DNA of 53,304 nt from Deltaproteobacteria bacterium GWB2_55_19 (GTDB lineage: Bacteria; Desulfobacterota; GWC2-55-46), in contig MGPQ01000012.1 of assembly GCA_001797465.1 (NCBI GenBank), positions 241,699 to 295,002 on the forward strand, given 5' to 3'. The notes under the pieces were generated by a model. The model had not been told where the DNA came from. It saw only the letters and a list, made by a program, of their open reading frames with translations, and did not search any database. Made by a program: the position numbers and the translations under genes. Positions 29,910 through 33,296 of the stretch are shown in pieces. Within the stretch, counting starts at the first letter, position 1; the number at the start of each line of letters is the position of its first letter.

Positions 29910-29933
29910 ACGTAAAATAAGAGGCCGCGGCCT
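29910..29933 (-). terminator. Terminator after the DtxR-family gene
   Basis: The palindrome AGGCCGCGGCCT (29922-29933) overlaps the dtxR stop codon and is followed on the minus strand by a T-rich tract (TCTTATTTTACG then TTTTTTT). The stem is short, so efficiency is uncertain. Confidence 0.55.
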
Positions 29934-30592
29934 TAGAAAATCTTTTTCACGTATATCTCTTTTATTATCTCAGGGTCGAGAGCGAGCGTTGTTTCTCCTA
30001 TCTGGATGACGAAGGCGGGGCGCTTCTGGTGGACTCTTACCGACGAACCTGGGACGATGCCGAGCGTCCCGAGCTTATCGAGTCGCGAATGGACGTTCGA
30101 GACAATGAAGGCGATCCTGCCGGTCTCCCCGACGTCGAGCGCGCTCAATTGCTGGAGGATCGGCTTTAATTCCCCGCCAGTCTTCCTGCAACAGTCGCCC
30201 TTTGGAATAGGCAGTCCGTGCGGGCACGTGGGCGGGTGTCCAAGGAGCGTGCATATGGAGTCCGTCACCTCGTGTGAAAGCGTGTGCTCGAAACTGCAGG
30301 CGTTCTTCTCGATGGATTCAGCGTCCATCGACAGGACCTCGGTCAGCAGACGTTCGGCGAGCCTGTGGCGGCGTATCGCGGCCTCGGCGAGCTTCTCGCC
30401 GTCCGAAGAGAGGACGACGGCGTCGCCGTCCATGCGTATGAGGTTGTTGCCGGCCATGCGCCGGAGTGTTTCGATGTCCGCCTCTTCGGCGACCTCCTCT
30501 ATGGCGAGGAGCTCCCTTATCGAGTTCGAGCCCCGCTCCCTCTGCGACCAGACGAACTCAAGGACCTCTTCGACTCCCTTATCCTGCTTCAT
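29933..30592 (-). CDS. DtxR-family metal-dependent regulator with C-terminal FeoA domain
   Basis: A 219-residue regulator: an N-terminal winged helix (about 1-65), a metal-binding/dimerisation domain with HxxxE-type residues (RRHRLAERLLTEVL; CSFEHTLSHEVTD; HPPTCPHGLPIPKGD), and a C-terminal SH3-like FeoA domain (about 150-219). DtxR proteins repress metal-uptake genes when Fe(II) or Mn(II) is bound. ATG 30592 follows AGGAGG; it starts 9 bases after feoB, so it is in the feoB operon and probably autoregulates iron uptake. It may also supply the FeoA-like domain otherwise missing from this locus. Confidence 0.87.
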   Translation of the reverse strand: MKQDKGVEEVLEFVWSQRERGSNSIRELLAIEEVAEEADIETLRRMAGNNLIRMDGDAVVLSSDGEKLAEAAIRRHRLAERLLTEVLSMDAESIEKNACSFEHTLSHEVTDSICTLLGHPPTCPHGLPIPKGDCCRKTGGELKPILQQLSALDVGETGRIAFIVSNVHSRLDKLGTLGIVPGSSVRVHQKRPAFVIQIGETTLALDPEIIKEIYVKKIF

Positions 30593-30601
30593 CAAACCTC
30601 C

Positions 30602-32572
30602 TCAAAAACTGACATTAAGGACTTTAAATATGAAATTCAAGGCCCCGCCAACGAGCACCGCGAACGGGAATATGAAAAGCGACATGAGGACGGCGGCCTT
30701 AAGCCCCCTCTCTTTTATCATCATGAAAAAATTCGCTATGCACGGGACGAAAAGCGTCATGGTGACGAGCGCGACGACTGTCTGGACCGGCGTCAGCATG
30801 CCGTCCTTCTGAAGGACAAGGAGCCCGGCGGCGCCGTAGTCTCTCCTTAAGAACCCTATGATGAAGGCCTGCGTGGACTCTATCGGGAGGTTCAGGAAGT
30901 TGACTATAATGGGAGAGCCCGCGGCCTCAAGGTACTTAAGCGCGTGGGTCTTATCAAGCGTAAAAAGGACGAGCGTGCCGAGTATGAAGAGCGGGACCGC
31001 TTCTTTTAGATACCACTCGACCCGCACGAGCGTCTTGAGCGCGATGTTCGACATCTGCGGCATCCTCATCGGAGGTATCTCGAGGATGAAGTCGGATGAC
31101 TCGCCCGGAAGGACCTTTGAGGCGAGGAGGCCGACTATGAACATCACGATGACGACGACACCCGCCCACCAGAGTGTGGCGTAGAAAGAGACCGCGCCGA
31201 GCATACCGAGTATGACGCCGAGCTGGGCGGAGCACGGGACGCCGAGCGCGAGGAGGAGCGTCACGATCACCCTCTCCTTTTTAGTCTCAAGGATGCGCGT
31301 CGTCATGGTGGCCATGGTGTCGCACCCGAGCCCCAGTACCATCGGAAGGACCGCCTTGCCGTTCAAGCCCATGAGCTTGAAAATCTTGTCTACCATTACG
31401 GCGAGCCTCGGGAGATACCCGGAGTCCTCGAGGAAGCTGAAGAATATGAAAAAGAACCCGACTATGGGGAGGACTATGGCTATGGCGTAGGTGAATGCCA
31501 TTGTCACAATGCCGTACTGGCCTACGATGAGGTCGTGCATGAGACCCGACGGGAATACAAGCGCCACGACGCGCTCAGCCCAGGGGTTCACGAACCCCTT
31601 GAATATGGTGGTCTCAAAGAAGTTGACGCTTACCCCGGCGCCCAGGACGCCGACGAATTCGTACATGAGGAATAGCACGGCAAGCAGTATCGGTATGCCC
31701 CATACTGGGTGCATGGAGAGCGACCCTATGACAGTTGAGAGCTTCGATTTCCCGAGCTTCTCCTGCGTAACAACGTCAGAGACGATAGCGTCGACGGTTT
31801 TGAGCCTCACCCTGTTTATGATGTATCCTACCGGGTCCGTGAACCTCGTCTGAACGCCCGAGCGGATATCCTCAATCTCCCCGGCCCTGCCGGGTGCGTT
31901 CTTATCGACCCAACCGGAGAGCGTTGCGTCGCCGGAGAGAAGCATGATGGCTATGGAGCGCGCGGAGATACGCGCCTGAGGCAGGAGCGCCTCTATCCGC
32001 CTTATGCCGTCCTCTATTAACTCCGGGTATTTGATGACCGATTCAGAATGGGCCCTGTGATGGAATGCGTCGGAGAGCTTGTCAAGGTTCCACCGCTGGG
32101 TGGCTATCGTGGGGATGACTGAGAGGCCGAGCGTTTTGGAGAGCTTTTCGATATCGACGGAGATGCCGCGCTCGCCGGCCTCGTCGTACATGTTGAGGGC
32201 GAGCGTTACAGGGAGATTCATCTCGACGAGCTGGAGGGTAATGAGCAGGCTCCTCCGGAGGTTCTTGGAGTCCATCACCTGGAGGGCGGAGCCGATGTTT
32301 TCATTCAGGAGTATGTCGCGGGTAACCTTCTCGTCCTCGGACATGGGGACGAGCGAGTTGACGCCGGGGCTGTCGATTATCCCCTGCTTCCTGCCGCCTA
32401 TGCGCGCGGTGCCTCTCGATACCTCGACGGTCGTGCCCGGGTAGTTCGAGACCGTCGCGTACCTGCCGGTTAAGGCGCCGAAGATGACGCTTTTGCCTAC
32501 ATTGGGGTTCCCGACGAGGACCAGCCACTCGCCGCTGTCATGCTCCCGCGCCTTTGAGCCTCCGTGGTTCAT
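30602..32572 (-). CDS. feoB: Ferrous iron transporter FeoB
   Basis: Inner-membrane Fe(II) uptake protein, 656 residues. The N-terminal G domain has G1 GNPNVGKS (near 22-29), G2 in YPGTTVE, G3 DSPGVNSL (commonly DLPGTYSL) and G4 NMYD. A helical spacer follows, then a membrane region with two Gate/NucRec-like segments, including LGCDTMATMTTR and GVPCSAQLGV with conserved cysteines. No FeoA or FeoC gene adjoins. The ATG lacks a ribosome binding site and coincides with the predicted transcription start (see promoter). A Fur box covers the promoter. Confidence 0.94.
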   Translation of the reverse strand: MNHGGSKAREHDSGEWLVLVGNPNVGKSVIFGALTGRYATVSNYPGTTVEVSRGTARIGGRKQGIIDSPGVNSLVPMSEDEKVTRDILLNENIGSALQVMDSKNLRRSLLITLQLVEMNLPVTLALNMYDEAGERGISVDIEKLSKTLGLSVIPTIATQRWNLDKLSDAFHHRAHSESVIKYPELIEDGIRRIEALLPQARISARSIAIMLLSGDATLSGWVDKNAPGRAGEIEDIRSGVQTRFTDPVGYIINRVRLKTVDAIVSDVVTQEKLGKSKLSTVIGSLSMHPVWGIPILLAVLFLMYEFVGVLGAGVSVNFFETTIFKGFVNPWAERVVALVFPSGLMHDLIVGQYGIVTMAFTYAIAIVLPIVGFFFIFFSFLEDSGYLPRLAVMVDKIFKLMGLNGKAVLPMVLGLGCDTMATMTTRILETKKERVIVTLLLALGVPCSAQLGVILGMLGAVSFYATLWWAGVVVIVMFIVGLLASKVLPGESSDFILEIPPMRMPQMSNIALKTLVRVEWYLKEAVPLFILGTLVLFTLDKTHALKYLEAAGSPIIVNFLNLPIESTQAFIIGFLRRDYGAAGLLVLQKDGMLTPVQTVVALVTMTLFVPCIANFFMMIKERGLKAAVLMSLFIFPFAVLVGGALNFIFKVLNVSF

Positions 32573-32578
32573 GCCGTT

Positions 32579-32607
32579 ATGATATTAATATTCATTTTCA
32601 ATTGCAA
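32579..32607 (-). promoter_or_regulatory. feoB promoter with overlapping Fur box
   Basis: TTGCAA (32602-32607), a 17-base spacer and TATCAT (32579-32584) on the minus strand. The predicted start is at about 32572, the A of the feoB ATG, so the mRNA would be leaderless. Positions 32581-32599 match the classic 19-bp Fur consensus at 14 of 19 bases on the minus strand, covering the spacer and -10. Iron-bound Fur from the adjacent gene should block it. Confidence 0.75.
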
Positions 32608-32628
32608 GAGAATTTTTTTTAGTCTACC

Positions 32629-33060
32629 TCAGACGCACTCCGAGCAGTAGCCGTAGAGCTCTAATTTATGGTTCACTACGGTGAAGCCGAGCTTTTTGGC
32701 CGCTTCGGCCTGGAGCTGTTCTATCTTCTGGTTCTGGAACTCCGCTATCTTAGAGCACTTTATGCAGATGATGTGGTCGTGGTGGCCGTTCTCCGGGAGG
32801 TTCTCGTACCGGGTCTGTCCGTCGCCGAACTGCCTTGAGATGGCCAGACCGCACTCTGTCAGGAGCTTCATCGTCCTGTAAACGGTAGCGTAGCCGATAT
32901 TCGGGGTCTTGCGCTTGACTTTCTTAAGGAGCTCTTCGAGGCTTATGTGGGTGTTGGTCTTGAAAAAGACGTCGGCTATGTAGTCGCGCTGGGCCGTGGA
33001 CTTGAGCCCCTTGGCCTCAAGGTAGGATTTCAGGATCTCAGTCTTGCTTAACTCCTTCAT
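32629..33060 (-). CDS. fur: Ferric uptake regulator Fur
   Basis: A 143-residue Fur-family repressor. The N-terminal winged helix has a recognition helix in GYATVYRTMKLL (near 55-66). The metal/dimer domain has HHDHIICIKCSKI and a C-terminal YCSEC, giving the two CxxC pairs of a structural zinc site. AAGGTGG lies just before the ATG. It is encoded upstream of feoB with a Fur box between them and downstream of tRNA-Gly, with no terminator between tRNA and fur. Another Fur-family specificity (Zur, PerR) is possible, but the feoB context argues for iron. Confidence 0.9.
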   Translation of the reverse strand: MKELSKTEILKSYLEAKGLKSTAQRDYIADVFFKTNTHISLEELLKKVKRKTPNIGYATVYRTMKLLTECGLAISRQFGDGQTRYENLPENGHHDHIICIKCSKIAEFQNQKIEQLQAEAAKKLGFTVVNHKLELYGYCSECV

Positions 33061-33108: not shown

Positions 33109-33184
33109 TGGAGCGGGAGACGGGGCTCGAACCCGCGACCTCAACCTTGGCAAGGTTGCGCTCTACCAACTGAGCTACTCCCGC
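33109..33184 (-). tRNA. tRNA-Gly (anticodon GCC)
   Basis: A complete cloverleaf reads on the minus strand. The acceptor GCGGGAG pairs with CTCCCGC; the D arm is GCTCAGTTGGTAGAGC; the anticodon stem CAACC/GGTTG holds loop TTGCCAA (33147-33153); the T arm is GCGGGTTCGAGCCCCGT. CCA is encoded (33109-33111). It probably begins a transcript continuing into fur. Confidence 0.98.
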
Positions 33185-33268: not shown

Positions 33269-33296
33269 ATTTTATCATAACGTGTGCGACTGTCAA
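33269..33296 (-). promoter_or_regulatory. Predicted tRNA-Gly (and fur) promoter
   Basis: TTGACA (33291-33296), a 16-base spacer and TAAAAT (33269-33274) on the minus strand predict a start near 33262, about 78 bases before the mature tRNA. Confidence 0.6.

Follow-up and report, generated by a model that had tools for sequence, protein, structure and literature searches.

How do transcription and translation of feoB begin in a locus where the start codon has no ribosome-binding site and a promoter-like element, itself overlain by a Fur box, ends only a few bases in front of it? This question is raised by the feo locus of Deltaproteobacteria bacterium GWB2_55_19, which lies on contig 12 of a 2.63-Mb genome, within the stretch of 53,304 nucleotides analysed here as a whole (the window, about 57% GC). 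Among named genomes, those nearest to this one come from groundwater metagenomes and bear the label "Deltaproteobacteria bacterium"; they belong to a little-studied group and include NC_groundwater_1707_Pr3_B-0.1um_57_20, whose FeoB is 98% identical. On the minus strand, the genes follow the order tRNA-Gly, fur, feoB and dtxR/feoA, with the following features:

33269-33296, minus strand: promoter-like TTGACA-16-TAAAAT, upstream of tRNA-Gly and fur
33109-33184, minus strand: tRNA-Gly(GCC), upstream of fur
32629-33060, minus strand: fur, 143 aa, SD AAGGTGG; PF01475 at E 5.9e-37, solved-structure neighbours Fur
32608-32622, minus strand: A/T tract just upstream of the -35, putatively UP-element-like
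32602-32607, minus strand: -35 hexamer TTGCAA, every base at 80% or more across 22 family genomes
32581-32599, minus strand: Fur box GAAAATGAATATTAATATC, 14/19 (15/19 read on the plus strand), covering the spacer and the -10
32579-32584, minus strand: -10 hexamer TATCAT, overlapping the Fur box; TAT[CT]AT in 22/22 family genomes, the -10 having also formed part of the search pattern
32573-32578, minus strand: discriminator AACGGC, six bases between the -10 and the ATG
32570-32572, minus strand: feoB ATG, its A (32572) being the predicted +1
30602-32572, minus strand: feoB, 656 aa, without SD; TIGR00437, with FeoB_N, Gate and FeoB_C domains
29933-30592, minus strand: dtxR/feoA, encoding a DtxR-FeoA protein of 219 aa from ATG; PF02742 and PF04023 present, PF01325 absent

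The identity of FeoB, the main ferrous-iron pump, is firm, with TIGR00437 at 405.5 bits over its cut-off. The fur start reads AAGGTGG, 3 nt, ATG, and that of dtxR/feoA reads GAGGAGG, 4 nt, ATG, with the SD overlapping the feoB stop. From the promoter through the feoB start, the minus strand reads CTTGCAATTGAAAATGAATATTAATATCATAACGGCATG. TTGCAA and TATCAT are separated by a 17-nt spacer and form a sigma70-type promoter (32607-32579), in which the -10 hexamer occupies positions -12 to -7 relative to the feoB ATG. With an SD pairing score of -1.9, no SD precedes this start. The annotated ATG is the sole in-frame ATG, GTG or TTG before the P-loop of the window feoB, and a misplaced start was rejected for this reason. 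An internal SD, GGAGG at feoB codons 4-5 (CACGGAGGC), was set aside as well, because no in-frame start is usefully spaced from it and it is absent in most relatives. In a few relatives, a downstream GTG with an SD may be the true start of feoB: G027 and G029 (score 10.0) and G024 (6.3).

Taken by itself, the promoter match is unremarkable, as 6 sites were found in a 5.1-kb region against 2.6 ± 1.8 expected. The background was drawn from 341 called genes of about 150 aa or more in 453 kb (the window plus 20 stretches), among which a 9/12 promoter ends 4-9 nt before the chosen start in two, feoB and an ApbE-like gene, a frequency close to what ordinary promoter spacing yields. SD pairing of at least 4 kcal/mol was found at the chosen start of 240 of the 341 genes, which is an upper estimate because start choice favours SDs, and 22 of the 341 have pairing below 1 kcal/mol. 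For leaderless usage in general, the sample gave no peak: of 216 first genes, 4 have TANNNT at 6 nt, the level per position being 3.7. Of the 44 first genes whose SD is weak, 3 have it there, with a level of 0.58 per position, and these numbers are too small to support a claim. An ApbE-like and an isoprenyl-transferase-like gene, both named by eye (C12:153434 and C12:116447 (+)), have TANNNT six bases before the ATG and a weak SD, and are candidate leaderless genes in their own right.

The Fur box stands above chance. It was scored against the 19-bp Fur consensus, and in composition-matched shuffles a match of 14/19 or better arose in 0.55% of 20,000 trials on the 56-nt intergenic stretch and in 0.2% of 2,000 trials on 88 nt; eight places in the 453-kb sample reach 14/19. 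The genome has three FUR-family proteins, one of which adjoins feoB. The nearest solved proteins of the latter are Fur (E 5e-29), with PerR less close (1e-21), and against the NCBIfam Fur models it falls below every cut-off, so that the name Fur is given by similarity. The two further FUR-family proteins are encoded on contig 12 (L002) and on contig 17 (L003, reaching the contig end). A scan of the whole genome that allowed up to 3 mismatches to the family consensus gave feoB and three other places, and of these three only the site upstream of ftr1 is clearly promoter-like. In front of this gene for an FTR1-family iron permease (contig 10, 54149 onward; L135 1501-2372), a 16/19 Fur box lies within TTGACA-17-TACAAT, and the -10 is followed by 35 nt to the ATG with a purine-rich SD. 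The long leader of ftr1, together with the SD of the second feo gene, indicates that leaderless initiation at feoB, if it occurs, would be a local choice.

A single genome would be weak evidence for such an arrangement, and it is conservation, rather than one genome's promoter match, that makes the case at the level of sequence comparison. We sought feoB in 30 family genomes, of which 22 were usable with the feoB 5' end; six had no true FeoB match (G001, G012, G015, G018, G021, G022) and in two the 5' end lies beyond the contig (G020, G026). The promoter/Fur-box block is present in all 22, with the 80% consensus CTTGCAATTGAAAATGAA..TTA.TATCAT, and the 10-nt bin upstream of the -35 that matches the A/T tract has an A/T share of 87%. 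Since the 19-bp Fur box does not reach the conserved -35, the promoter seems to have been kept and not merely the operator. From the -10 to the ATG the distance is 6 nt in 12 genomes, 7 nt in seven and 8 nt in one, i.e., 6-8 nt in 20 of 22, although, the family genomes being related, this does not equal 20 independent events. The exceptions are G014 (14 nt, no SD) and G019 (35 nt with an SD). Seventeen different sequences stand between the -10 and the ATG, and the gap that separates fur from feoB in relatives is anywhere from about 44 to 191 nt long; since both vary while the -10-to-ATG distance is held, the sequence has drifted and the length has not. A class-wide scan for the block found 26 places in 25 of 63 genomes, against 0 in a reversed control, with an ATG at 5-9 nt in 21 of the 26; one place, in G009:C16, was judged to be chance on account of its overlap with an unrelated gene's start. 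The elements, their spacing and their conservation are in this respect direct observations on the genomes. The initial annotation had described a feoB ATG without a ribosome-binding site, a -10 ending seven bases before it and a 14/19 Fur box over spacer and -10. The box, exceeding shuffles and conserved, and the missing binding site stand as described, and so does the adjacency of the -10, except that six bases intervene and seven are reached only by counting to the A. The wider proposal of Fur control with leaderless geometry is favoured by this phylogenetic footprinting.

Outside the family, the pattern is patchy. In the rest of the order, an ATG follows at 6-8 nt in 6 of 14 genomes with a usable 5' end (one order-level genome, G032, has TTGACA as its -35), and in the rest of the class in 0 of 9. 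In G041 and G042 (loci L164 and L166) no gap separates the Fur box from the feoB ATG (TATCAATG); the block therefore cannot give a leaderless mRNA there, and the promoter must differ. The ATG lies 85-134 nt from the block in G031, G037 and G038, and 32-103 nt behind the best-scoring block in seven genomes of class family f13, where the block of G056 is a weak match. Six Nitrospirota loci (L045, L050, L059, L063, L065, L067) have a Fur-like box with the start 16-39 nt behind it and an SD present. This patchiness indicates that the leaderless layout belongs to the family and parts of its order. Upstream regions of Nitrospirota feoB (L041, L045, L032, L036, L037) carry a different conserved Fur-like box, GAAAGTGATAACCAGT[AT]TC, with longer spacing to the start.

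On the reading that we favour, at a probability of roughly 0.7, feoB-dtxR/feoA would have its own Fur-repressed promoter, yielding a leaderless or nearly leaderless feoB mRNA. The sigma70-type promoter between fur and feoB would transcribe both feoB and dtxR/feoA; iron-loaded Fur, the product of the adjacent upstream gene, would sit on 32581-32599, over much the greater part of both spacer and -10, and would exclude RNA polymerase, whereas low iron would free the promoter. Because the -10 and the ATG are only 6 bp apart, +1 is predicted on or near the AUG, and given the 6-nt discriminator it would fall at 32572 or within about two bases of the AUG. The feoB mRNA, in other words, probably begins at its start codon and would be translated by direct AUG recognition, while DtxR-FeoA would be made from the same mRNA through its own normal SD. 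What we infer from the conserved layout is Fur binding, the 5' end and leaderless initiation.

A rival account, which we consider unlikely, has feoB read from a fur-feoB read-through mRNA that starts at the tRNA-Gly/fur promoter, with the block acting as a minor promoter or as a roadblock formed by Fur. The leader, rich in A/U and free of an SD, would then be translated by S1-type, SD-independent initiation. Such a transcript would be consistent with the co-directional arrangement of fur and feoB, only 56 nt apart and with no terminator-like site between them on their strand, with the strong promoter-like site upstream at 33296-33269, and with the occurrence elsewhere of SD-weak genes, the 22 counted above. 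It needs, however, neither a conserved -35 nor a fixed distance to the ATG, yet both are kept while the fur-feoB gap varies, and the search for a Fur box at the upstream site gave nothing above 10/19.

Does a second iron regulator converge with Fur on this operon, as the initial annotation had suggested from a Fur gene upstream and a DtxR-FeoA gene downstream of feoB? Both identifications are upheld, Fur by its solved-structure neighbours, though it lies below the NCBIfam cut-offs, and DtxR-FeoA by its matches to PF02742 and PF04023. The convergence is not: neither a DtxR nor an MntR box rises above chance at the promoter, PF01325 stays below its cut-off in the class genomes, and of the parts compared the recognition helix shows the least conservation. 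In the 88-nt promoter region, the best DtxR-box match is 11/19, reached by 19% of shuffles, and the best MntR-box match 10/20, reached by 86%. For the window protein, PF01325 is unlisted up to E 10. None of 62 genomes in the class has a match over the cut-off, whereas 12 of the 14 controls do, and even at E 0.1 the domain appears in only 3 of 47 orthologues, all 47 of which carry PF02742 with the FeoA domain. In an alignment of the window protein with 46 orthologues (A1), the mean top-residue share is 0.36 in the recognition region, against 0.72 in the metal/dimer domain and 0.67 in FeoA, and the corresponding value for the Fur recognition helix is 0.93 (34 sequences). The recognition helix is eroded, and the helix next to it is acidic (EEVAEE in the window). 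Net charge of the N-terminus was discarded as an argument, since IdeR is acidic there too.

We therefore regard a working second transcriptional regulator of the feo operon as improbable, although several features would suit one. The metal-site residues H76, C99, E102 and H103 are retained in 45-47 of 47 sequences, and the AlphaFold model contains a winged helix, predicted with confidence (mean pLDDT 88.0), and superposes on IdeR with an rmsd of about 2 over about 130 alignment columns; given this IdeR-like fold, DNA binding is unlikely, yet possible. There is also a precedent: PgMntR of P. gingivalis, which is of the DtxR type and carries FeoA domains, binds DNA, and its gene, PG1044, neighbours feoB2 (PG1043) (PMC4805248). 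The window protein resembles PgMntR in having a DtxR metal/dimer domain and a FeoA domain encoded beside feoB. The two differ in that a DNA-binding domain is predicted for PgMntR, which has two FeoA domains (PMC4805248), whereas the corresponding domain here is unrecognised by Pfam and there is one FeoA domain. Invariant in A1 are C99, H103, C114, H119, C134 and C135, and the protein is found behind the same feoB type in records named as several phyla.

Gene linkage points to another role. DtxR-FeoA is the genome's only FeoA-domain protein and its only DtxR_C protein. Among 53 feoB genomes, one of which (G016) was left out of this count, a FeoA-domain ORF lies within 1.5 kb of the same feoB type in 50 of the 52 examined; the others are G037, with no FeoA match and feoB at a contig end, and G052, with FeoA elsewhere. 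G026, G028 and G029 have a second feoB, 32-33% identical, with short FeoA ORFs beside that gene. The sole FeoA domain, the linkage to feoB and the separate short FeoA beside the second feoB together suggest that DtxR-FeoA acts as the FeoA partner of FeoB. More specifically, and only tentatively, it may be an iron-sensing FeoA subunit that is no longer a repressor, its DtxR domain reading cytosolic iron and its FeoA domain relaying this to FeoB, which would give two control layers. The eroded recognition helix would fit such a subunit, as would the retained metal-site residues and the extra cysteines C114, C134 and C135, likewise kept in 45-47 of 47 sequences. Known FeoA partners and FeoAB fusions are alike in that the FeoA domain is genetically tied to FeoB, and they differ in that the window FeoA is fused to a metal-sensing dimerisation domain; a published survey of FeoA removed DtxR-linked FeoA proteins by hand (PMC8980893).

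As to the start of the feoB mRNA, it is quite doubtful that transcription starts a few bases earlier, giving a leader of 3-8 nt that is functionally SD-less and not leaderless, for, although the purines GG at positions 4-5 past the -10 could be +1 and G014 has 14 nt from the -10 to the ATG, a discriminator is usually 6-7 nt, which places +1 on the A of the ATG and is the length seen in most family genomes.

The preferred reading, a Fur-repressed promoter giving a leaderless or nearly leaderless feoB mRNA, combines two familiar themes. Fur-repressed promoters with the box over the -35 and -10 are textbook. The feoB promoter is alike in having a 19-bp box over the spacer and -10 of an iron-uptake gene, and ftr1 follows the same logic in the same genome; it differs in that the feoB operator adjoins the coding sequence, with 8 bp between operator and start codon. 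Bacterial leaderless genes have a TANNNT -10 about 12 bp before the start, and were predicted in 8 of the 33 delta-proteobacterial genomes of one survey (Zheng et al., 2011; PMC3160421); a -10 motif of leaderless genes has also been described in Deinococcus (PMC12340547). In -10 position, AUG start and absent SD, feoB shares the signature of that survey (PMC3160421). Unlike known leaderless genes, it also has a -35 and an overlying repressor site, and the sample of its own genome lacks a general enrichment. A literature search that covered few subscription papers found neither a leaderless feoB or Fur-overlaid leaderless promoter nor DtxR-FeoA proteins without a DNA-binding domain. Leaderless genes and Fur-covered promoters are both known kinds, of which feoB is a conserved new instance.

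For this family, feoB stands out clearly as a conserved candidate for a leaderless mRNA that responds to iron, in a bacterium with mostly SD genes. About 30 bp contain the Fur operator, the -10 and the start codon, a layout that constrains how the operon can evolve and that would allow a single short fragment to show how repressor, start site and leaderless translation are linked. What FeoA does is a matter of debate, and a widely linked DtxR-FeoA whose recognition helix has degraded would point to post-translational feedback of iron on FeoB. If the iron-sensing FeoA reading is true, one operon would combine Fur at a leaderless promoter with allosteric feedback on the FeoB pump.
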